From assembly GCF_009832745.1 (NCBI RefSeq), contig NZ_VRMJ01000041.1, positions 129,001-193,000 of the forward strand: a DNA stretch of 64,000 nt, given 5' to 3'. The first letter of the stretch is position 1. Each line of letters opens with the position of its first letter. The stretch comes from Polaribacter septentrionalilitoris. GTDB taxonomy: Bacteria; Bacteroidota; Bacteroidia; Flavobacteriales; Flavobacteriaceae. The notes beneath the pieces are model-generated. The model made no database searches, was not told the DNA's origin, and saw nothing but the letters and a program-made list of their open reading frames with translations. A program made the position numbers and the translations under genes. Below are positions 3,724-51,565 of the stretch, piece by piece.

Positions 3724-4828
3724 AAATAATTTCCATCATTTTTTTTGCAGCCTTTTCAGGTGAAAATGGCTCAAGTTTTTTCAACCTTTTTTCAACTTCT
3801 TTTTCTGTAAATTCTTTTTGAAAAAGGACTTCTGTTTTTTTTAGAATTTCTTCTCTAGAGTTAGCTGTTTCACAAATTGTTTCTAAACCTGTATCTTCTA
3901 TTAAAGGAGAGTTTGCAATTATAAATTTTCCTTTATAAAGTGTATTTAGAAGTTTTAATTTGATTCCTGTTTTTTGAAAAGTAAATAATGTATTTATATG
4001 GGCTTTTGTAAATAACTTATTTAAATCTTGCTGTGTTGGAATTTGTTCAATAGAAATATTTTCGTATTTATTTACTTCTTCAATAATATCATTTTCTTTT
4101 ATAGAAGTTGCAATAACAAATTTATATTTAGTGTTTTTATAGATATCAATTAAAAACAAACAAGCTTTTATATTATCTGCAACTCTTAAATCTCCATGAT
4201 ATAATATAAAGTCTCCTTTTTTATTATCATTAGTATAAATTATAGCTTCATGGAAAGCTGGTAAATAAATGGTTTTATTTTTAAAATTTTCAGAAAAATA
4301 GTTCTGCTCAAAAGGAGAAATTGTAAAAATTGCTTTAGCTTTCTTAAGGTTTTTTTCAAATTTTTTAAGTTTAAACCCTTCTAGATAAAAAAATAGTTTT
4401 CTTAAGATGTTTTTTTCGCTTTTAGCTAAGCCATAAAAATAGGAATGCTCAATATTATGTGTTCTTACGTAGCATTCTTTTAAATTAAATTTATAAAGCG
4501 GATATATTGTATGTAATCCTTCAAATAAAATAGGGCAATCTAAATCTTTAAGGTTTGAATTTAACGCTTGGTTAACTCTACTCTTTAACCTAAATGGTAA
4601 TATAGAAAAGATAGAAGTAAAAGTGTTGTTTCTTTTGTAATACGTAACTTTTTCACAATAGTTTTCTAGCTCTTTTTGTTTTTTTTTATGATCAAAAATG
4701 TAGGTATGTAAATAAATTTTTACACCCAATTTATGAAGCTCTTTTATTTTATAAAATACATCTATAATTCCACCATAATTGGGAGGATAAGGTATGTCAA
4801 AAGAAACGATATGCAATCTTTTACTCAT
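3716..4828 (-). CDS. Glycosyltransferase, GT4-like
   Basis: A cytoplasmic protein of 370 residues with an N-terminal Rossmann-like half that opens with HIVSFDIPYPPNYGG, the glycine-rich donor/acceptor loop typical of GT-B glycosyltransferases. A C-terminal half follows (YHGDLRVADNIKA and later TGIKLKLLNTLYKGKFIIAN) that resembles the nucleotide-sugar binding lobe. No signal peptide or membrane segment is visible. It probably transfers a sugar to a surface polysaccharide or glycoprotein glycan; donor and acceptor cannot be read from sequence. It is divergent from the oxygenase gene and about 0.9 kb from a second glycosyltransferase. Confidence 0.75.
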   Translation of the reverse strand: MSKRLHIVSFDIPYPPNYGGIIDVFYKIKELHKLGVKIYLHTYIFDHKKKQKELENYCEKVTYYKRNNTFTSIFSILPFRLKSRVNQALNSNLKDLDCPILFEGLHTIYPLYKFNLKECYVRTHNIEHSYFYGLAKSEKNILRKLFFYLEGFKLKKFEKNLKKAKAIFTISPFEQNYFSENFKNKTIYLPAFHEAIIYTNDNKKGDFILYHGDLRVADNIKACLFLIDIYKNTKYKFVIATSIKENDIIEEVNKYENISIEQIPTQQDLNKLFTKAHINTLFTFQKTGIKLKLLNTLYKGKFIIANSPLIEDTGLETICETANSREEILKKTEVLFQKEFTEKEVEKRLKKLEPFSPEKAAKKMMEIIFR

Positions 4829-27944: not shown

Positions 27945-27984
27945 TTTTTTTCTGAATTTATTTCAGTATTTAATTTTGTTTTAT

Positions 27985-28033
27985 GATTCTGAAGATGTCA
28001 CCTTGAGCGCAGTCGAAAGGTTGTTTCAGAATC
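27985..28033. repeat. Palindrome carrying a TGAGCGCAGTCGAAAGG core
   Basis: Outer 9-bp arms GATTCTGAA (27985-27993) and TTCAGAATC (28025-28033) enclose TGTCACCTTGAGCGCAGTCGA and AAGGTTG. Lies between hemH and the trmH-like gene, touching the latter's 3' end. Same family as 32512-32569. Confidence 0.75.
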
Positions 28034-30904: not shown

Positions 30905-32500
30905 ATGCAGAAAACAATTAGAATAGGTACTCGCGATAGCCAATTGGCGCTTTGGCAAGCTAATAAAGTACGCAAAGAATTAGCGGAATTAGGATATGAA
31001 TCTGAGATTGTCCCTATTAAATCTACAGGAGATATCGTTTTAGATAAACCGCTCTACGAATTAGGAATTACTGGGATTTTTACCAAAAATTTAGATATTG
31101 CTATGTTAAATGGTGATATTGATATTGCTGTGCACTCTCTAAAAGATGTACCAACGGTTTTGCCAGAAGGTATTATTCAAGGAGCAGTTTTAAAAAGAGC
31201 AAACTACAATGATATTTTAGTTTTAAAAGACACTGAAGAATTCTTTGGACAACCAAATGGAATAATTGCAACAGGAAGTTTACGAAGAAAAGCAATGTGG
31301 TTAAATCGTTATCCAACGCATAAAGTAGAAGATTTACGCGGAAATGTAAATACGCGTTTGCAAAAATTAGAAGATAGTGAAACTTGGAACGGAGCTATTT
31401 TTGCTGCTGCTGGATTAGAAAGAATTGGTAAAAGACCCAAAGGAGCAATCAGTCTTTCCTGGATGATTCCTGCACCTGCCCAAGGTACAATTATGGTTGC
31501 ATGTTTAGAAAAAGATGATTTTACAAAAGATGCTTGTGAGCAACTGAATCATTATGAAACACAAGTTTGTGTTGGTATAGAACGTGAGTTTTTGAATCAA
31601 TTAGAAGGTGGTTGTACTGCACCAATAGGAGCTTTAGCTTATGTTGATGAGAAAACTGAAGAAATCAATTTTAAAGGAGTTTTACTAAAAAAAGACGGTT
31701 CCAAGAAAATTACAGTGACCAAAACCGCTAAAATGGGACGTCACCGTTTTTTAGCAAAAGATTGTGCAGATTATATAATTAATAGAGGTGGAAAAGAGTT
31801 GATGTTGGATGATATGGAGGGTGAAACTTTAGTAAGCCATAATGTATATTCCACTAAAAAATTATCAGAAGCTCAAAAGAAAACTTTGCCAAGTACAATT
31901 GGCATTGAAGATAGTGATTTTATTAAAATCCGTTTCAATAGAATTCCACCAAAAGTGATGAAAAACGAACTAGAAAATGTTATCATTACCAGTCAAAATG
32001 GGGTGGAAGCTATTTTGAATTCATTCACTAAAGATGAATTGAAGTTTAAAGACATTTATTGTGTTGGAAGAAGAACTAAAAAGTTGATTGAAAATAGAAT
32101 AGGTAAAGTTACTCATGTGGCAAAAAATGCTAAAAAATTAGCAGAATATTTATCTACAGCATTAGAAAATAAAGAAGTTACGTATTTCTGTAGTGATTTA
32201 CGTTTAGATATTTTACCAGCGTATCTACAAACTCACGATATTGTTGTAAATGAGGTTGAAGCTTACAAAACAATGCTAAGTCCTGTAAAAATTGATGATA
32301 CTGTTTCTGGAGTTTTATTTTACAGTCCCTCAGGAATTGAGAGTTATTTAAAAGAAAATTCAAAAGATAAAATAGCATTTTGTATTGGAGAAACTACAGC
32401 AAAAGAAGCAAGAAAACATTTTGATAAAGTTGAAGTTGCCAATTTACCAAGTGTAGATTCGGTTTTAGAATTGGTGAAATCTCATTTTTCAGGAAATTAG
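30905..32500 (+). CDS. hemC: Fused hydroxymethylbilane synthase / uroporphyrinogen-III synthase
   Basis: A 531-residue two-domain protein. Residues 1 to about 310 are a complete porphobilinogen deaminase: RIGTRDSQLALWQA at the start, catalytic aspartate D81 in HSLKDVP, RLRGNVNT-type DLRGNVNTRL, and the dipyrromethane-binding cysteine C237 in LEGGCTAPIG. From about residue 330 to the end the sequence matches the HemD fold (NVIITSQNGVEAI, IYCVGRRTKKLIE, VTYFCSDLR, VLFYSPSGIESY, AFCIGETTAKEA). The fusion would make linear hydroxymethylbilane and cyclise it to uroporphyrinogen III in one polypeptide. No separate hemD is in the cluster. Confidence 0.93.
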   Translation: MQKTIRIGTRDSQLALWQANKVRKELAELGYESEIVPIKSTGDIVLDKPLYELGITGIFTKNLDIAMLNGDIDIAVHSLKDVPTVLPEGIIQGAVLKRANYNDILVLKDTEEFFGQPNGIIATGSLRRKAMWLNRYPTHKVEDLRGNVNTRLQKLEDSETWNGAIFAAAGLERIGKRPKGAISLSWMIPAPAQGTIMVACLEKDDFTKDACEQLNHYETQVCVGIEREFLNQLEGGCTAPIGALAYVDEKTEEINFKGVLLKKDGSKKITVTKTAKMGRHRFLAKDCADYIINRGGKELMLDDMEGETLVSHNVYSTKKLSEAQKKTLPSTIGIEDSDFIKIRFNRIPPKVMKNELENVIITSQNGVEAILNSFTKDELKFKDIYCVGRRTKKLIENRIGKVTHVAKNAKKLAEYLSTALENKEVTYFCSDLRLDILPAYLQTHDIVVNEVEAYKTMLSPVKIDDTVSGVLFYSPSGIESYLKENSKDKIAFCIGETTAKEARKHFDKVEVANLPSVDSVLELVKSHFSGN

Positions 32501-32511
32501 GTATTTAAAAA

Positions 32512-32569
32512 TGTCTCCTCGAGCGCAGTCGAGAGGTTAAATTAGTTCTCAACTGCGCTCGAACTGACA
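32512..32569. repeat. Complete GAGCGCAGTCGA palindrome between hemCD and hemB
   Basis: CGAGCGCAGT (32520-32529) pairs exactly with ACTGCGCTCG (32552-32561). Outer TGTC and TGACA extend the symmetry, and GAGAGG/GTTCTC continue it inward around an AT-rich loop. Full version of the intergenic repeat family in this window. It might act as an attenuator or transcript stabiliser, but there is no T-tract. Confidence 0.85.
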
Positions 32570-35965: not shown

Positions 35966-36092
35966 GGGCGTTCCCTAAAGGTCGCGCTTTCCATTATATC
36001 TTTTTAATTTGTCACCATGAGCGCAGTCTAAAGTTCTTGCTTTTGAAACAAATTAAAAAGGATGCCATTTCAATCGCTAACGCAAGCCAACG
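35966..36092. repeat. Compound palindromic repeat, GGGCGTT...CTAACGC element containing a GAGCGCAGTC half-repeat
   Basis: Outer arms GCGTT (35968-35972) and AACGC (36079-36083). Inner arms ATCTTTTTAATTTG (35998-36011) and CAAATTAAAAAGGAT (36049-36063) pair except for one extra G. Inside the inner loop is GTCACCATGAGCGCAGTC (36011-36028), the core of the other repeat family. The whole spacer between hemE and the EI24 gene is this element. Confidence 0.7.
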
Positions 36093-43857: not shown

Positions 43858-44265
43858 TTATTGCTTTGGGCGTTTAGATTTATAGCGTTTATTAGAGTTT
43901 AAAGCACCCAGCATTTCAATACTTTCTTCTTTTAAAACCACAGTAATAAATGTAGATTTCTCACTGATTTTAATTTGTTTTTTTATGTATCCTAAGTAAG
44001 AAAATACTAGAATATCTCCTTTTTTTAATTTTTTAGGAAATGTAAATTCACCTTTTTTGTTTGTTGTTGTAGCAAAATTGGTTCCTTTTAAATAAACAGA
44101 AGCTTCCATTAATGGTTCTATTTCTGTTTCTACGTTTCCTTTTACAATACCTTTTACGGTAATTTCTTGAGCTTGTGCAATACTAGAGAAAAAGAATAAA
44201 GCAAAGAATAAACTTAAGAGAGTAAATGTGCTTTTTTGTAAAGTTAATGTTTTAGTAGTTTTCAT
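43858..44265 (-). CDS. Secreted carboxypeptidase-like regulatory domain protein
   Basis: 135 residues: a long signal peptide (to about residue 32, ending IAQAQ) and one CarboxypepD_reg-like Ig fold (TVKGIVKGNVETEIEPLMEASVYLKGTNFATTTNKKGEFTFP ... FSYLGYIKKQIKI). This is the plug-side domain commonly fused to TonB receptors, but here it stands alone with a short basic tail. Followed after 4 nt by the transglutaminase-like gene. Confidence 0.8.
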   Translation of the reverse strand: MKTTKTLTLQKSTFTLLSLFFALFFFSSIAQAQEITVKGIVKGNVETEIEPLMEASVYLKGTNFATTTNKKGEFTFPKKLKKGDILVFSYLGYIKKQIKISEKSTFITVVLKEESIEMLGALNSNKRYKSKRPKQ

Positions 44266-44425
44266 AATGAGATGTTTTTAATTTACTTCAAAAATAGTTG
44301 CTAAAATACTTGAAAAAAAACCTAAATGAGTGATTAGTATGTAATTGTGGTGTTAAAGTTACTCTTTATTTAGTGAAATTAAAAATGTGAATTGTTAAAA
44401 ACAAACGTCATGAATTTTTTTAACG

Positions 44426-45661
44426 TTAATACCATCTTTTTTTCTTCTTTTTAGAAGCTTCAGATTTTCTTCCTTTTTTATGTTTGCTGATAGTGTTGGG
44501 TTGTTTCTTTTTATGCTTAGGTTTCTGTACTGGATAAGGATGATCATCAATAACTTTAATCGATTTTTCAAGTAAAACTTCTATGCTTTTGATGTAAGTA
44601 TTTTCATCAGGAGAACAAAAAGAAAACGCAATTCCAGATTTTCCTGCTCTACCTGTTCTACCAATTCTATGGATATACGTTTCTGGTATATTCGGAATAT
44701 CAAAATTGATAATGGCATCTACATTGGTAATGTCAATTCCTCTTGCAGCTACATCAGTTGCAATTAAAATCGTTGCTTTTTTACTCTTAAAATCTTCAAT
44801 GGCTTTATTTCTGATTCCTTGACTTTTATCTCCGTGAATACTGGTTGCTTTATAACCGTTTTTAAGTAAAGTTTGTTCTAGTTTATCAACTCCAAATTTG
44901 GTGCGTCTAAAAATGATAATTTTCCCATTAATGGTGTTTCGCAACAAATGCAAACACAAATCTGTTTTGTTCTTTTTTGGAAGATAATATAATAATTGAC
45001 CAATATTTTTTGCAGTAGTTTCTTCAGGGTTTATCTCAACTCGAACCGCATTTTTAATAACCGATTTTGCGAGTGCATCAATGGTTTCTGGAATGGTGGC
45101 AGAAAATAATAAGGTCTGTTTTTGCTTTGGTATTAATTTTTCAATCTTTTTTACATCATTGATAAAACCCATGTCCAACATTAAATCGGCTTCATCTAAC
45201 ACAAAGATTTCTACATCAGACAAATCGATATTTCCTTGCAGTTGCAAATCTATTAAACGACCTGGAGTAGCTACCAAAATATCTACACCTTTTGCCAAAA
45301 ATTCTTTTTGAGGTTCTAAAGAAACACCACCAAAAACGGCTGTTGTTCTTAAGTTAGAATATTTAGAATAACTTTTAAAGTTTTCTAAAATCTGAATAGC
45401 CAACTCACGAGTAGGCGTAACTACCAATGCTTTTATGGTTTTGGCTCCTTTTTCTGCATCTTGTTTGTTTAATAACAAATCTATAATAGGTAATGCAAAA
45501 GCAGCAGTTTTACCTGTACCAGTTTGTGCAGAAACAATAACGTTTTTTCTGTTTAAAACTAAAGGGATTGTTTTTTCTTGTACTAAAGTTGGTCTATGAA
45601 AGCGTTCTTCAGCAACTGCTTTTAAAATTGATTTGTGTAATGGTAATTCTGTGAATTGCAT
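44426..45661 (-). CDS. DEAD-box ATP-dependent RNA helicase (RhlE-like)
   Basis: 411 residues with all DEAD-box motifs: motif I AQTGTGKTAAFALP near residue 45, Ia PTRELAIQ, Ib ATPGRLIDLQ, II DEADLMLDMGF, III SAT, IV-V IIFRRTKFGVD and VAARGIDITNVD, VI HRIGRTGRAGKS. The basic C-terminal tail (about 40 residues) is typical of RNA-binding extensions. RhlE-type helicases remodel rRNA and mRNA, often for cold growth. Its promoter and first eight codons are duplicated at 48531-48581 with a stop in codon 2. Confidence 0.94.
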   Translation of the reverse strand: MQFTELPLHKSILKAVAEERFHRPTLVQEKTIPLVLNRKNVIVSAQTGTGKTAAFALPIIDLLLNKQDAEKGAKTIKALVVTPTRELAIQILENFKSYSKYSNLRTTAVFGGVSLEPQKEFLAKGVDILVATPGRLIDLQLQGNIDLSDVEIFVLDEADLMLDMGFINDVKKIEKLIPKQKQTLLFSATIPETIDALAKSVIKNAVRVEINPEETTAKNIGQLLYYLPKKNKTDLCLHLLRNTINGKIIIFRRTKFGVDKLEQTLLKNGYKATSIHGDKSQGIRNKAIEDFKSKKATILIATDVAARGIDITNVDAIINFDIPNIPETYIHRIGRTGRAGKSGIAFSFCSPDENTYIKSIEVLLEKSIKVIDDHPYPVQKPKHKKKQPNTISKHKKGRKSEASKKKKKRWY

Positions 45662-45684
45662 TCTTTAATTTTTTGTAAAGGTAG
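45634..45684. repeat. 51-bp direct repeat, copy 1 (functional helicase 5' end)
   Basis: Covers the helicase leader and start. On the minus strand it reads CTACCTTTACAAAAAA then TTAAAG, ATG and the first codons. 49 of 51 bases match copy 2 at 48531-48581; the two mismatches are 45637 (G vs A) and the helicase second codon (CAA here, TAA in copy 2). Marks the left edge of the accessory segment. Confidence 0.9.
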
Positions 45685-45808
45685 TTGAAAAGAGATTGTA
45701 ATTTCTGAAAAAACAATTAGTCTTCTTTAAAACAATTACTATCAAAAAACAAGGTTTAAGTTGTATTGAATTTACAAGATATAGTTAGTAGTTAAAGTTT
45801 GGGTTCGT

Positions 45809-46498
45809 TTAAAATATAGGAATCCCAATTCCAATTCCACCATTTAAACCAGTCCAACCTGTTTTTACAGGATTTCCATCTTTAAAAGTCAAATGCGCAT
45901 CAGAAATTTCCTCAAATTCTAATTTACCCCCAAAATAAATATCTAAACCTATAAATGGTTTTATAATTAATGAACCCAAATGAACTTTGTAGGTTAATAG
46001 TAAACCAGTACCAAAATCAACAGATTTAAAATCAAAATTTTCATCAGTTAAGTTATTCGCAATGGAATTATAGTTTTTAAGTGTTAATTTTGAGAAAGTT
46101 ATAAGGCCTTTAACCCCAAAAAGCAGTTCTCCTTTACTTGTTTTTTTTATTGTTTTTTCATAATAACCTCCAAATGTAGCACCTTTAATTTCATTAGTTA
46201 GGGTAATAAAACCAGAAAAATCTGCCAGAGAAGTTTTACTGCCAGAAACTTTATGGCTGTAAAAAAAAGATGTGTTTATTTTGTTTATTTTGAATCCAAA
46301 TGTAAATCCATAATTAAAATTGAAATTGTCAGTCGTTTTTAGTCCATTAAAATTTATATCCTCAGCTAATTCATTGTGAAAATTTCTCAAGGGTATGTTA
46401 GTAAATGTTCCAAAATTTAAATCTGTAAAAATTTCTGCTTTTTGAGCGTAAATATTTATAGAAATAAAAGATACAATCAAATAAAAGTATTTTTTCAT
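45809..46498 (-). CDS. Small outer-membrane beta-barrel protein
   Basis: About 229 residues from the ATG at 46498. A signal peptide ends NIYAQ, followed by about ten alternating amphipathic strands (FNYGFTFGFKINKINTSFFY, GATFGGYYEKTI, GELLFGVKGLITFSKL, GTGLLLTYKVHL) and a final strand ending in GIPIF, consistent with an outer-membrane barrel. No known family was recognised. The upstream frame to 46540 is rejected because the signal peptide starts at 46498. 16 nt downstream of the lipoprotein gene, so co-transcribed. The two sit between 51-bp direct repeats. Confidence 0.65.
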   Translation of the reverse strand: MKKYFYLIVSFISINIYAQKAEIFTDLNFGTFTNIPLRNFHNELAEDINFNGLKTTDNFNFNYGFTFGFKINKINTSFFYSHKVSGSKTSLADFSGFITLTNEIKGATFGGYYEKTIKKTSKGELLFGVKGLITFSKLTLKNYNSIANNLTDENFDFKSVDFGTGLLLTYKVHLGSLIIKPFIGLDIYFGGKLEFEEISDAHLTFKDGNPVKTGWTGLNGGIGIGIPIF

Positions 46499-46514
46499 AG
46501 CTTTAATTCTTTTC

Positions 46515-48404
46515 TCAATAATTATCAAAATACATTCCATTAGAATAGATTAATCTATTGTTTTGAAAGAAAACGAAGTAAATTTCTTTATGATATCTCT
46601 CACCTTTAGTTTCTTCATAATTTAATCTTTTAGATGTTTTTAATGTTAAATCATATATTTCTGCAGCTCCTTCTTTTACTAAAAAAACTTTATTAGAAAG
46701 TGGATCAAATGTTATTAATCTTCCCTGATGAAAAGGTTCAAAAGATTCTATAACTTTAGTATCTAAATCTACTAAATAGATTTTTTGATCTAATTCATAA
46801 AGAACTTTATTGTTGTAAAACTTTATTCTTGGACGTCCTTTAATATCGATTACTTTTTCAAGATTATCATTTACAATTTCATAAACAGTACCTATATTTT
46901 TATTATAATCTGGTATATATAGGTATTTTGCATCATTTGAGAGTATGCCTCCATCAGCTAAAAAAACATTTGAAGGAGCATTTAATTTACCCGAAAAAAT
47001 TATGTTATTGGACTTTAAGTTTTTTACTTCTAAAAATAATTTAAAGGAAGAAGTGTCATATTTATAGAGAATGTCATTTCTTAATACAGATAGAAAGGAA
47101 CCAGATGTATTATTATTCTCATATTTTTCAACAATATTTAGGTTATCCTTATCAATTTCATAAGATCCATTACTAGTTTCAATGTGAAAATTATTATTCG
47201 AGGGGTTTAAATTGAAAATTTGAGGAGCATTATAGTTAGAATAAGGAGAGTCACTAGTAATATATTTTTCTCTTAATACAATCATTTCTTGTGAATATTC
47301 ATAAATGTAAAGTGCATTATTTTTAAGTACTAGTGCATAATACTTTTTTGTGTAAGAATTATAGAGCACATCTATTATTTGATAATTATCTACACTAAAC
47401 AAATTGAAAGAATTATTTTCAAGTGGAATTTCATCAGCTAAATAATATACACTAAAATTTTCAAAACTAACAGAGGCTGTATATTTTCTACCAATGACAT
47501 AAGGTTTATTAATAATTTTTTCACCCCCTAATGTTGAACCATTAAATCTAAAAGTATCGAAACCAAAAGTAAATTCTTTTGCATTGTTATAAAGTGGATA
47601 TTTATCCCATTTTATTTTATAACTGTCGGAATTTAGATACTCAATTTCTAAATTAATCCAATTTGGGTCGAATGTAATTCTTTTACCAGAACCTTTTAAT
47701 TCTTCATATGTACTTGAATATACTATTGAATATTCTACAAATGTTAAAATATCTTGTCTCCATGAATTTTCTGGCCCTACTAAAAGTTTTGTGGATGTAT
47801 CAATATATTTATTATGTTTTATTTCATTTGGTGTTAAGGCAATTCTTCTCTCTGAATGTTTAAATTTTAGATTTAAATATGCATTTTCAAAATCAGAGTT
47901 TTCTGATGAATTCCAATCAATTCTAATACTTCCATTTTCAATACTAACACTTGTGATAGGTGGAGGAGTAGAGGGGTTTCTTTTTATGACAAATTTATAT
48001 GACTGTGATAATGTTAGAAATTCTAAACCTGTTTGATCTTTTATACTTCCTGAGCCTGATGTAAATGTATGCTCAATTCTAATAGTATGTTGACCATCAT
48101 TGTATCTAGAAGGTTTTATGGTGAACGATCCTTTACCAAATTCCCATACCGAAGAAATTATTTCGTTATCTAAAAAAACTTTTGAATTTACGGTATTTTG
48201 ATTCAATTTGTTATTAAACGTATAACTTAAATTTGTGTCAATATTAATTGTATCATTTTCTTGAAAATTTAGAATTGTAACAACTTGATCTTTTAAAGTT
48301 GGTGTTTCTATATTAATAAAGTTATCATCTGAAAAATTGTAACTACAACTTGATATTAAAGTTAGTATAAGGAAAATAAAAAATTTAAAAAAATTAGCTT
48401 TCAT
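46515..48404 (-). CDS. Large lipoprotein with Ig/FnIII-like and beta-propeller-like regions
   Basis: A 629-residue predicted lipoprotein: lipobox LISSC with cysteine 20. It then has an Ig-like region (about 35-145: VVTILNFQENDTINIDTNLSYTFNN ... HTIRIEHTFTSGSG), a fibronectin-III-like region (150-310) and a C-terminal half of short repeated strands (KYYALVLKNNALYIYEY, DNLNIVEKYENN, KVLYELDQKIYLVDLDTK, NKVFLVKEGAAEIYDLT) that looks like a seven-bladed propeller. No catalytic motif seen. Strongly AT-rich with many AAT/AAA codons. Followed by the small barrel gene; probably a surface or periplasmic partner of it. Function unknown. Confidence 0.65.
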   Translation of the reverse strand: MKANFFKFFIFLILTLISSCSYNFSDDNFINIETPTLKDQVVTILNFQENDTINIDTNLSYTFNNKLNQNTVNSKVFLDNEIISSVWEFGKGSFTIKPSRYNDGQHTIRIEHTFTSGSGSIKDQTGLEFLTLSQSYKFVIKRNPSTPPPITSVSIENGSIRIDWNSSENSDFENAYLNLKFKHSERRIALTPNEIKHNKYIDTSTKLLVGPENSWRQDILTFVEYSIVYSSTYEELKGSGKRITFDPNWINLEIEYLNSDSYKIKWDKYPLYNNAKEFTFGFDTFRFNGSTLGGEKIINKPYVIGRKYTASVSFENFSVYYLADEIPLENNSFNLFSVDNYQIIDVLYNSYTKKYYALVLKNNALYIYEYSQEMIVLREKYITSDSPYSNYNAPQIFNLNPSNNNFHIETSNGSYEIDKDNLNIVEKYENNNTSGSFLSVLRNDILYKYDTSSFKLFLEVKNLKSNNIIFSGKLNAPSNVFLADGGILSNDAKYLYIPDYNKNIGTVYEIVNDNLEKVIDIKGRPRIKFYNNKVLYELDQKIYLVDLDTKVIESFEPFHQGRLITFDPLSNKVFLVKEGAAEIYDLTLKTSKRLNYEETKGERYHKEIYFVFFQNNRLIYSNGMYFDNY

Positions 48405-48499
48405 AGCAGGTGTAAACTCAGAAGTTAAAAGTAAATGTATATAATTATAACAAAATAATCATTCAATTAATTAAAATTTTATATATACTAATTGATAGT

Positions 48500-48529
48500 A
48501 AAAAACCTCTCTGTTTTCACAAAGAGGTT
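48500..48529 (-). terminator. Terminator on the minus strand after copy 2
   Basis: Minus strand reads AACCTCT ... AGAGGTT followed by a run of T (48500-48505). It ends transcripts coming from the 48597-49298 gene before the lipoprotein gene. Confidence 0.65.
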
Positions 48530-48530
48530 A

Positions 48531-48581
48531 TGTATAATGGTAATTCTGTGAATTACATTCTTTAATTTTTTGTAAAGGTAG
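48531..48581. pseudogene. 51-bp direct repeat, copy 2: decapitated helicase 5' end
   Basis: Minus strand gives the helicase leader, ATG, then TAA (helicase codon 2 CAA changed to a stop), and the next six helicase codons in sequence. After that the similarity ends abruptly at a terminator hairpin. It lies 15 nt after the stop of the 233-residue gene. Either a relic of the helicase gene or of the sequence it was copied from. Confidence 0.85.
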
Positions 48582-48596
48582 ATTAAATCTTCTATT

Positions 48597-49298
48597 TTAG
48601 TTTTTTAATTCTATTAGTTCATTTTTAAAAATTCTATACATAAAAACTTTTGTAAAATTTGTTTCAAAATAATCTATTTTAATTTTTGAAAAAGAGGCAG
48701 CTGTCATATCTCCCTCTCTAATCAAAAGCCAATATTCATCACAATTTTGATATTTTTTTAATTTTTTATCCTTTTTATTTAATATAAAATTTAGCTGTTG
48801 ATTTGTGAATTTGGGTATGATACCATAATCTGATTCACCAAAAAAGTTGTTAGGCAAATCATTAGTAAAGAATAAGTTAATATTGATTATACCTTTTATA
48901 TTTATTTCCTGTTCACCAAAATCAAAGACTTTATTATTTTGAACTTCATTAATATTATTATCTAAAAATCTCTTTGTTTTCTGTAATAATAATTCATGCT
49001 CATTTGATTTTATGTTAAGATTTTTATCTATATCTATAAATAAATGATAGGGTATTTTATATGTTATATTATTTGTTAATAATCTTCCAATTTTCCTTTT
49101 AAAACTCCTAAATTTTTTCAAATCTGAACCTTTTAAAGAATCATCTTGAAAGCATTCTGTTATTTCAATACCAATTTTTTTAGAATTTAAATTAGCAATT
49201 AAGTCAGGCTGTTCTGTGAATCTCACATTTTCTAGCTTTGAAAAAGGTGTAAATAATTTAACTTTTTCAATTAGTAGTTTTTCTTCTTTTTTATTCAT
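48597..49298 (-). CDS. Hypothetical protein with a possible PD-(D/E)xK-like core
   Basis: A 233-residue, lysine-rich, very AT-rich protein. Residues 31-32 (PD in TEQPDLIANLNSKK) are followed by a beta-strand IGIEITE with E45-x-T47. The spacing resembles the PD-(D/E)xK nuclease core in its variant form, where threonine replaces the lysine, as in several uncharacterised endonuclease-like families. Later parts (GIININLFFTN, DEYWLLIREG) suggest a second strand layer. No DNA-binding or toxin domain was recognised. It has a terminator on each side (htpG's at 49316 and its own at 48500), so it is an independent unit. Function unproven. Confidence 0.55.
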   Translation of the reverse strand: MNKKEEKLLIEKVKLFTPFSKLENVRFTEQPDLIANLNSKKIGIEITECFQDDSLKGSDLKKFRSFKRKIGRLLTNNITYKIPYHLFIDIDKNLNIKSNEHELLLQKTKRFLDNNINEVQNNKVFDFGEQEINIKGIININLFFTNDLPNNFFGESDYGIIPKFTNQQLNFILNKKDKKLKKYQNCDEYWLLIREGDMTAASFSKIKIDYFETNFTKVFMYRIFKNELIELKN

Positions 49299-49315
49299 GT
49301 TTTAAAGTAGCAAAA

Positions 49316-49344
49316 AAAACCTCATTGAAAAGCAATGAGGTTTT
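49316..49344 (-). terminator. htpG terminator
   Basis: AAAACCTCATTG / CAATGAGGTTTT stem with a 5-nt loop. On the minus strand it is followed by a run of T, so it ends htpG transcription 20 nt after the stop. Confidence 0.85.
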
Positions 49345-49364
49345 ATTACTAACAAATATATCAA

Positions 49365-51275
49365 CTATTTTATCAACTCGTAACTTCTTTTAATAAAGTT
49401 TGTTAACTCCTCACCATGCAAAAGGTTTTGAGATAATTTTGCCAAATCAAAAGCTTGAGAAATTAAGCCTTTTTGCTTGTCTTCATCAGCAGCTAAAATT
49501 TCAGAAACTAATGGACTATTGGTGTTTACCACCAAGTTGTACATGTCTGGCATATTGCCCATTCCCATCATTCCTCCACCTCCAGAAGCTTGCATTTCTT
49601 TCATTCGACGCATAAATTCTGGTACAGTAATAATAAATGGAGAAGAAGCAGAATCCATAGCTTCTAATTGCACTGTATATGCAGAATTGTTCACTGCACC
49701 TTCAATTACTGGCTTTAATTTCTCTTTTTCTTCATCAGAAAGTTTAGAAATTACTTCTTCGTCTTTTTTAATTAAATTGTCAATATGATCTGCATCAACT
49801 CTTGTAAATTTAATTTTTCCTTCACCAGAAGTTTCTAATTTCTGCATTAAGTGTGATATAATTGGCGAATCTAAAATTAATACTTCATACCCTTTTGCGG
49901 TAGCATCTTGTATGTAACTATGTTGTGCATCTTTGTTCGCTGCATATAAAATTACATGATTACCATCTTTATCAGTTTGTGCATCTTTTGTTTTCTCAAT
50001 CAATTCATCAAAAGTGAAAAACGTATCTGCTACTGTTGGGTATAAAGCAAATTTCTTCGCTTTGTCAAAGAATTTATCTTCAGACAACATTCCGTATTCG
50101 ATAATTACTTTAATATCATTCCATTTTTTCTCAAAGTCTTCACGATCTTTTTTGAATAATGATGATAATTTATCAGCAACCTTTTTGGTAATGTAACCAG
50201 AGATTTTCTTTACAGCTCCATCTGCTTGTAAATAAGAACGAGAAACGTTTAATGGAATGTCTGGAGAATCAATAACACCTTTTAACATTTGTAAAAAGTC
50301 TGGTACAATTCCCTCTACATTATCAGTTACAAAAACTTGATTTTGATACAATTGAATTTTATCCTTTTGCATGTCTAAGTTTTGAGACAACTTAGGGAAG
50401 AATAAAATACCAGTTAAATTAAAAGGATAATCTACATTTAAGTGAATGTGAAATAAAGACTCCTCAAACTGCATTGGATACAATTCTCTGTAGAAATTAT
50501 CGTAATCTTCTTTTTCTAAATCTGCTGGTTTTTTTGTCCAAGCAGGATTTGTGTTGTTGATGATATCATCTACTTCAATCTGTCTGTGAGGTTCTGTAGT
50601 TTCTTTACCTTCAGCATCTTTTGTAGTTTTTGGTTCGTGAGTAGGATCGTTTACTTTTTTAGTACCGAACTTAATTGGCACTTGATTAAAACGATTGTAT
50701 TTGGTTAATAAACCTCTAATTTTACCTTCTTCTAAAAACTCCGTAGAATCTTCAGCAATGTTCAAAATAATTTCTGTTCCTCTGTCAGATTTGTCAGCTT
50801 CAACTAAAGTGTATTCAGGAGAACCATCACAGGTCCAATGTGCAGCAGGCTCATCTTTAAAAGATTTTGTAATGATTTCAACTTTATCAGCAACCATAAA
50901 AGCAGAATAAAAACCTAAACCAAAGTGTCCAATTACACCAGTTTCGTTTTTATCGTCTTTGTATTTATCTAAAAATTCTTCAGCACCAGAAAATGCAATT
51001 TGATTGATGTATTTTTCAACTTCATCAGCAGTCATTCCTAAACCTTGGTCTTTAATGGTCAGTTTTTTTGCTTTTTCATCAATACTGATTTCAATTTTTG
51101 CATCACCTAACTCAGTGTTTGCTTCACCAATAGAAATTAAGTGTTTTAATTTGGTAGTTGCATCAGTTGCGTTTGAAATTAATTCACGTAAAAAGATTTC
51201 GTGATCAGAGTACAAGAATTTTTTAATCAGTGGAAAAATATTTTCTACTGATACATTAATGTTTCCTTTGCTCAT
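49365..51275 (-). CDS. htpG: Hsp90-family molecular chaperone HtpG
   Basis: A 636-residue cytosolic ATP-dependent chaperone. The GHKL ATPase motifs are in the N-terminal domain: LRELISNATDAT (N-box), IKDQGLGM, GVIGHFGLGFYSAFM (lid glycine-rich loop) and GTEIIL. Middle and C-terminal domains follow, with the dimerisation end near LLHGEELTNF. A methionine-rich segment (GGGMMGMGNMPDMY) occurs near residue 570. Full length. A repeat palindrome lies upstream. Confidence 0.97.
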   Translation of the reverse strand: MSKGNINVSVENIFPLIKKFLYSDHEIFLRELISNATDATTKLKHLISIGEANTELGDAKIEISIDEKAKKLTIKDQGLGMTADEVEKYINQIAFSGAEEFLDKYKDDKNETGVIGHFGLGFYSAFMVADKVEIITKSFKDEPAAHWTCDGSPEYTLVEADKSDRGTEIILNIAEDSTEFLEEGKIRGLLTKYNRFNQVPIKFGTKKVNDPTHEPKTTKDAEGKETTEPHRQIEVDDIINNTNPAWTKKPADLEKEDYDNFYRELYPMQFEESLFHIHLNVDYPFNLTGILFFPKLSQNLDMQKDKIQLYQNQVFVTDNVEGIVPDFLQMLKGVIDSPDIPLNVSRSYLQADGAVKKISGYITKKVADKLSSLFKKDREDFEKKWNDIKVIIEYGMLSEDKFFDKAKKFALYPTVADTFFTFDELIEKTKDAQTDKDGNHVILYAANKDAQHSYIQDATAKGYEVLILDSPIISHLMQKLETSGEGKIKFTRVDADHIDNLIKKDEEVISKLSDEEKEKLKPVIEGAVNNSAYTVQLEAMDSASSPFIITVPEFMRRMKEMQASGGGGMMGMGNMPDMYNLVVNTNSPLVSEILAADEDKQKGLISQAFDLAKLSQNLLHGEELTNFIKRSYELIK

Positions 51276-51304
51276 AATTTTATGTTTATTTTAGTTTTTG
51301 TTGA

Positions 51305-51404
51305 TGTCACTTCGAGTGATTTTCTTTTTTGAAAATCGTATCGAGAAGTTATAATTGTTCTCGATAAAAATTTTTCATTCTTCAAAATTCACTCGAACTG
51401 ACAG
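51305..51404. repeat. Large double palindrome upstream of htpG
   Basis: Outer arms TGTCACTTCGAGTGAATTTT-like: TGTCACTTCGAGTGATTTT (51305-51323) against AAAATTCACTCGAACTGACA (51384-51403). Inner arms TATCGAGAA (51339-51347) / TTCTCGATA (51358-51366). Same TCGAG/TGACA family as the repeats in the haem region. The remaining 51405-51565 is AT-rich with no gene. Confidence 0.75.
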
Positions 51405-51565
51405 ACAGTTATTATTTTATAATTTGATAAGTGTATAGTCAAAAAAAATACCAAATATTGTATTGTGACAAGATGACATAAATTGATGAGTTTCGTCAGT
51501 TTTCTATCCGTATAAAATTGCTTATTTTAGCTTATTACAACAAATAATTAACTAAAGATAAATAT

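Follow-up and report, generated by a model that had tools for sequence, protein, structure and literature searches.

Illegitimate recombination with homology at one end only has already been established experimentally, and comparisons of genomes have also led to its proposal; its homology-facilitated form was reportedly treated by de Vries and by Prudhomme in 2002 and by Meier in 2003. Homology-facilitated illegitimate recombination is described for naturally competent bacteria and for conjugation in Escherichia coli (PMC3240628), and in the passages of PMC2884548 that bear on it is offered as a source of small variable segments in bacterial genomes. Hotspots lying between core genes and free of mobile elements are also on record, with exchange at the flanking core genes as the proposed route (PMC5635113), and the type VI effector-immunity arrays of Vibrio cholerae are portrayed as products of sequential displacement, with each new module anchored by homology at one of its ends and joined without homology at the opposite one (PMC5361080). 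Here we consider the interval between htpG and a DEAD-box helicase gene in a 64,000-nucleotide stretch of the genome of Polaribacter septentrionalilitoris (contig NZ_VRMJ01000041.1, positions 129,001 to 193,000; hereafter the window), where a short scrap of a core gene end appears to record the stacking of two alternative fillings of the same slot, and for which a second species supplies a mirror case at the other border. The locus looks like a natural example of an accident that piles up genes without a mobile element. No account of the htpG-helicase locus in Flavobacteriaceae, Polaribacter or Tenacibaculum was found in the open-access literature searched.

As in the V. cholerae arrays, a displaced gene end and older cargo appear to remain behind a newcomer at a fixed locus for which no integrase is known; there the cargo encodes toxins and immunity proteins, and the scraps come from effector 3' ends (PMC5361080), whereas here unrelated accessory genes lie between housekeeping genes and the scraps derive from the helicase 5' end or, in the second species, from the htpG 3' end. 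With homology-facilitated illegitimate recombination, as outlined in the literature cited, the locus would share one homologous and one illegitimate end, and added DNA with a non-homologous seam; those experiments had known parents, whereas the parents here are presumed. Accessory turnover between conserved genes, in many instances with no identifiable integrase, is common to this locus and to the hotspots and variable segments as they are presented in PMC5635113 and PMC2884548, but there one filling is swapped for another through the flanks, whereas here two fillings seem to stand in series with a seam that can still be read. The features concerned are listed in coding direction, alleles 1 and 2 being the two proposed fillings.

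49365..51275, minus strand: htpG, the left (upstream) conserved border (NCBIfam NF003555 HtpG, 637 bits against a cut-off of 371)
49316..49344, minus strand: first terminator, directly after htpG; closer to the terminator of G064 than to those of relatives G015 and G157, which it does not resemble
48597..49298, minus strand: o233, accessory gene of an unnamed family, cargo of proposed allele 1; candidate PD-(D/E)XK-like nuclease
48531..48587, minus strand: copy 2, a dead helicase start made up of the conserved leader (including its TACCTTTA box), ATG, TAA as codon 2, and about nine codons
48529..48531, minus strand: seam, helicase codon 9-10 joined to an htpG-type terminator
48504..48529, minus strand: second terminator, of the htpG type and with a CCTCTTTGTGAAAACAGAGAGG core, at the left edge of proposed allele 2; called from uniqueness, matches in the genus and folding
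46515..48404, minus strand: lipo, a predicted lipoprotein of 629 residues and unnamed family, cargo of proposed allele 2; signal and cysteine recognized by eye
45809..46498, minus strand: barrel, the partner of lipo (open reading frame opens at 46540)
45634..45690, minus strand: copy 1, the working helicase leader and first codons, from the repeat and leader comparison
44426..45661, minus strand: DEAD-box helicase, the right border (Pfam DEAD 163.6 bits, Helicase_C 113.3 bits)

The helicase leader, start codon and first codons occur twice. By direct reading and by repeat search, copy 1 (45634-45684) and copy 2 (48531-48581) are identical at 49 of 51 bases, and the similarity extends to 45634-45690 and 48531-48587 with 53 of 57 positions identical (93%). 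Read on the minus strand, copy 1 gives the helicase start, ATG CAA TTC ACA GAA TTA CCA TTA CAC, and copy 2 gives ATG TAA TTC ACA GAA TTA CCA TTA TAC and diverges afterwards, so that codon 2 is a stop and the likeness to the helicase ends after some eight to nine codons; the initial annotation had described the same identity, positions, stop codon and loss of similarity, and all were reproduced. When copy 1 (45634-45700) was used as a query against the whole 3.45-Mb assembly it retrieved itself, then copy 2 at E = 3.0e-18 and a third match at only E = 0.0089; the repeat is therefore neither a chance resemblance nor a dispersed repeat, an identity we reject because the genome holds just two strong copies. 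The pair is also the sole direct repeat of at least 36 nucleotides and more than 80% identity in the window. Comparison of intervals among relatives delimits a shared helicase leader of approximately TTnAACTACCTTTG, continuing as an A-rich stretch as far as the ATG, and this leader holds a match to the Bacteroidetes -7 box, for which the consensus TAnnTTTG is given (PMC2483708). The outer edge of copy 2 falls at about the place where the leader common to other alleles begins; it is therefore an ordinary allele edge, and a break is present only at the inner edge.

Both sides of that break are directly observed. At 48530 codon 9-10 of the helicase abuts, with no shared homology, a hairpin at 48504-48529 with an 11-bp stem and a T tail (folding z = -5.35 for 48490-48560), and this hairpin differs from the terminator now found directly after htpG. 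It had been overlooked when the lipoprotein and barrel genes were first, and correctly, placed between the two copies, as had a third accessory gene beside the repeat, o233, which stops 9 bp short of copy 2 on the upstream side. The 22-nucleotide core of the hairpin has a single site in its own genome even when up to three mismatches are allowed. Across the 166 congeneric genomes searched, allowing at most one mismatch, it has 40 matches in 37 genomes, compared with none for a reversed control pattern; by coordinates that were paired by hand for htpG, helicase and core, 32 of the 40 follow the htpG coding match within 100 bp, and the remaining eight (in G000, which is the genome of the window, and in G024, G033, G061, G075, G091, G094 and G151) are situated 0.6-6.4 kb downstream of the gene. 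In relatives G015 (exactly) and G157 (with one mismatch) the terminator of htpG is of this second type. A generic terminator is rejected as the identity of the hairpin, given that its core is unique in the genome and that its near-exact matches are confined to the neighbourhood of htpG. Since all matches lie downstream of htpG, the helicase start is linked at the seam with sequence from the htpG side of this locus, and on these sequence grounds that holds whichever gene formerly owned the hairpin.

Two further observations concern these terminators. At one mismatch or fewer the hairpin sequence is confined, in the 166 genomes, to the first 7 kb after htpG, sometimes occurring twice and also after a different gene; and in G154 (L097), G072 (L101) and G075 (L102) the htpG stop codon is separated from the terminator by similar stretches (TTGCGAG...GAAGCAATCTG).

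The interval so interrupted is an accessory-gene slot whose filling varies between species. Matches to htpG are present in 164 of the 166 genomes (E <= 1e-100) and to the helicase in 133 (E <= 1e-150); the best NCBIfam matches of the latter are RhlE and CshA, all below their cut-offs. In at least 21 genomes, 20 of them taken from the coordinate tables of htpG and helicase matches and one (G151) added, the two genes are neighbours and keep the same order, with intervals of 139 to 6924 bp. Four intervals are directly seen to be nearly empty, with lengths of 139, 157, 174 and 179 bp; they belong to the genomes G086, G006, G165 and G108, in no stated order. Cargo in 20 intervals comprises a cupin gene (five genomes), an amidohydrolase gene or a piece of one (five), a short-chain dehydrogenase gene (four) and a gene for an uncharacterized 120-residue protein (four), and further includes a MutS-V-domain gene, a GNAT gene and a set of six genes that encodes beta-lactamase-family and AraC proteins. 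When the htpG and helicase proteins of 19 of the 21 genomes are concatenated, the resulting tree distributes the near-empty alleles over three distinct parts, and the genome of the window groups with relatives that carry no cargo (G086) or unrelated cargo (G015, G114), consisting of a MutS-V-domain gene or of an AraC/beta-lactamase-family set. The same core flanks thus enclose several unrelated cargo families as well as near-empty alleles. A Pfam scan of the three interval proteins of the window and of 19 cargo proteins of relatives, restricted to the larger open reading frames, to one of each set of homologous copies and to genomes other than G151, detected no recombinase or transposase domain, in keeping with the absence of an integrase noted at the outset. 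The view of the repeat as the trace of a former insertion or recombination is likewise upheld: the 20 other intervals have no comparable second helicase start, four are nearly empty, both copies together are absent from relatives, and copy 2 is no widespread repeat. Different cargo enclosed by duplicated helicase starts was found in no other genome.

The order in the window is htpG, terminator, o233, helicase leader with nine codons, and then htpG-type terminator, lipo, barrel and helicase. Two full fillings placed in series, lacking most of the first helicase and the second htpG, would give this arrangement; both outer flanks are intact core genes. At a probability of roughly 70%, we propose that an htpG-o233-helicase allele and an htpG-lipoprotein-barrel-helicase allele were fused through a single non-homologous junction, as in homology-facilitated illegitimate recombination, which is the most likely and the most economical route. 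A fragment from another cell, a close relative, would have paired by homology within one border gene, either htpG or the helicase, while its other end was joined without homology; allele 1 would contribute its terminator, o233 and a helicase start, of which copy 2 would be the truncated survivor, and allele 2 its htpG-type terminator, lipo, barrel and the helicase. An equivalent course, in which a single-crossover (Campbell-type) merger was followed by one deletion, or in which a merodiploid was formed, would leave the same seam; merodiploids made by transformation are described in Streptococcus pneumoniae (PMC3784515). The initial annotation took the lipoprotein and barrel genes to be an inserted segment beside which the helicase 5' end had been restored, and that polarity is unsupported: because the seam lies between copy 2 and a terminator of the htpG side, o233 together with copy 2 is an equally possible newcomer, and the sequence allows the two options equally. 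The initial interpretation as a whole is thus partly supported. Once formed, the 51-bp repeat could permit loss of the 2.9-kb unit by recombination or slippage between its copies.

A similar case is directly seen in G024 (L040, approximately 4386-4541; 1477-1601 of the interval in coding direction), where a scrap of htpG and an htpG-type terminator precede o233. The order there is htpG, a gene for a 120-residue protein, a DUF6624 gene, the last 70 bp of htpG with the terminator, o233, a cupin gene and the helicase. The block to the left of the scrap resembles G188 (71% over 690 bp), and that to the right resembles G139 (91% over 44 bp in the terminator region and 94% over 435 bp from the cupin gene to the helicase start); the scrap itself is 71-78% identical to htpG 3' ends. 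Judged from these sequences, G024 is a second case and the mirror image of the scrap in the window. Among the 21 intervals, a clear remnant of the helicase start is found in the genome of the window only (E 1.5e-19), and a clear remnant of the htpG 3' end in G024 only (best E 2e-10). Scraps of core gene ends within accessory intervals could provide a footprint by which to search for this route. Other matches to border genes were judged to be chance: a 43-nucleotide internal piece of the helicase in G075 (E 6e-6) and a match in G151 (E 0.01) both fall in the last codons of an AHSA1-domain gene (recognized by Pfam in the former and by eye in the latter), the match in G072 (24 nucleotides across the ATG, E 2e-4) lacks both the promoter box and the codons that follow, and the remainder are weaker (E 0.003-0.05, or 0.0003-0.01 with whole-gene queries). 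A minus-strand control reaches E 0.0009.

Several observations weigh against a fusion of two alleles. None of the 166 genomes was found to carry either presumed parent, whether htpG-o233-helicase or htpG-lipoprotein-barrel-helicase by itself, and both parent-like genomes of G024, G188 and G139, are without o233. The hairpin at the seam also ends an amidohydrolase cargo gene in G075 and, by eye, in G151; it could therefore stem from a lost cargo gene rather than from htpG, and its former owner could be either htpG or a gene once beside it. Eleven tests for mosaicism along htpG and the helicase returned p values of 0.007-0.88, six of them at p <= 0.07; they are suggestive at most, and none survives correction for the eleven tests. 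Among 14 relatives, the sequence following htpG fits the second terminator better in ten and the first in three, with one tie; the nearest relative in htpG, G064, fits the first, and the signals of polarity, taken from terminators and from sliding identity along htpG and the helicase, are in conflict. The genome of the window does possess genes of the ComEC type (PF03772) and for DprA (PF02481), but each family exceeds its cut-off in 10 of 14 control genomes, E. coli included, and their presence therefore says little. Natural competence, for its part, is reported for some Flavobacteriaceae and, in the relevant passage of that source, was not seen in Flavobacterium johnsoniae (PMC7965970).

The alternative that survives best is a local event within one genome, in which the 5' end of the helicase gene was copied upstream by tandem duplication of the htpG-helicase region or by template switching as the DNA was replicated, the duplicate then being mostly lost and the cargo sets arriving separately by other routes. 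An origin within one genome predicts what is observed in the repeat, where copy 2 resembles copy 1 (93% over 57 nucleotides, E 1e-19) more closely than it does any other helicase start in 20 intervals, the best of which, that of G015, reaches 87% over 54 nucleotides; copy 1 itself matches the G015 start at 93% over about 54. A donor of the same species would, however, yield equal similarity, and a local event leaves unexplained both the htpG-type terminator, unlike the one directly after htpG, and the two unrelated cargo sets flanking the seam. We regard it as unlikely.

A quite different possibility concerns o233, whose invariant residues and predicted fold weakly suggest a PD-(D/E)XK-like nuclease. 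The gene was found in four of the 166 genomes. The member in the window has no match in Pfam, NCBIfam, PADLOC or PHROGs, none in a plasmid collection and nothing informative among Protein Data Bank (PDB) sequences, where two salivary proteins were returned at E 0.24 and 0.9; one relative occurs among viral contigs. A pattern-based scan of 84,980 species genomes yielded 16 relatives, which we take to comprise 12 from Bacteroidota, two from Gammaproteobacteria, one from an alphaproteobacterium and one from a Nanosynbacter genome. The family (loci L132-L148) has invariant P-D, I-G-x-E-x-T and C-D-x-x-W-L residues, although the third catalytic residue is not the lysine usual in PD-(D/E)XK enzymes. 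The AlphaFold model (predicted local distance difference test, pLDDT, 77.6) aligns in VIA-align with XisH, SfsA, Bax1 and Hjc at Z 4-6.3, behind acetyl-CoA carboxylase chains at Z 6.8, and the best Foldseek match, at E 0.2, is to an unrelated enzyme. Among the 21 intervals, the two with a clear border-gene scrap (G000 and G024) are the only two with o233, a coincidence of 1 in 210 if independent, although noticed after the fact, and in both the gene lies right behind the terminator at the htpG 3' end. Because the scraps coincide with o233, because of this position behind the terminator and because the family is PD-(D/E)XK-like, o233 might be a selfish, integrase-free nuclease gene that cuts alleles lacking it at or close to the 3' end of htpG or the 5' end of the helicase gene, whereupon repair would copy it in by one-sided homology and leave a scrap of a border gene. 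We attach little credence to this as an explanation of the locus; the family, accompanying both scraps, is a candidate helper of one-sided recombination.

That a mobile element inserted at the helicase start and regenerated its 5' end, in the manner of site-specific elements that enter gene ends, the 51-bp repeat being a pair of attachment sites, is very improbable. The repeat does bracket a discrete two-gene unit, and one of its copies does restore the gene, as such an insertion would require. The unit, however, has no integrase or other recombinase domain to accompany paired sites, the 20 other intervals are without a comparable second helicase start, the lipo-barrel pair is found elsewhere at most 1 kb downstream of dnaE (six of eight other genomes) and not at a helicase start, and the outer edge of copy 2 approximates the edge of a conserved leader. 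A transposon target duplication and an integrase island are rejected as well, no recombinase domain having been detected in the scanned cargo proteins. Finally, retention of copy 2 as a regulatory device, in which promoter and terminator would give an RNA of about 60 nucleotides or insulate lipo-barrel from o233, has its basis in the preserved TACCTTTA box and the strong hairpin that follows, but is the least probable explanation, as copy 2 is clear in only one of 21 intervals, has a stop as codon 2, and lies in a region (44000-51500) with no Rfam match at gathering scores.

The counterparts of lipo and barrel lie near dnaE in those six genomes (loci L107, L108, L109, L110, L117 and L118); the stretches taken from the other two, G173 and G135, showed no dnaE. 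The two genes occur in the same nine of the 166 genomes and are neighbours in all nine, the closest homologs being those of G173 (41% for lipo and 54% for barrel), and with the lipoprotein-type signal recognized by eye they look like a portable surface pair. Lipo has no match in Pfam, NCBIfam or PADLOC and a single PHROG of unknown function at E 0.54; barrel has no informative match in these collections or in PHROGs, and PDB sequences were uninformative for both. By eye, barrel probably starts at the ATG at 46498 and not at 46540. The fold for which it was named was an earlier guess that was not confirmed, its single-sequence structure model (pLDDT 32) being too poor to bear on function.

Two minor observations concern the surroundings. 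G064 (L112), G005 (L114), G061 (L122) and G094 (L124) showed no helicase match between htpG and the pair of carboxypeptidase-regulatory-like and transglutaminase genes that in the window comes after the helicase, and the helicase may therefore itself be a movable tenant of the region. Elsewhere in the window, a 42-nucleotide sequence with a GAGCGCAGTC core is present in three copies (27981-28022, 32497-32538 and 35995-36036), the other two being 79% and 69% identical to the first, and is probably a dispersed repeat.

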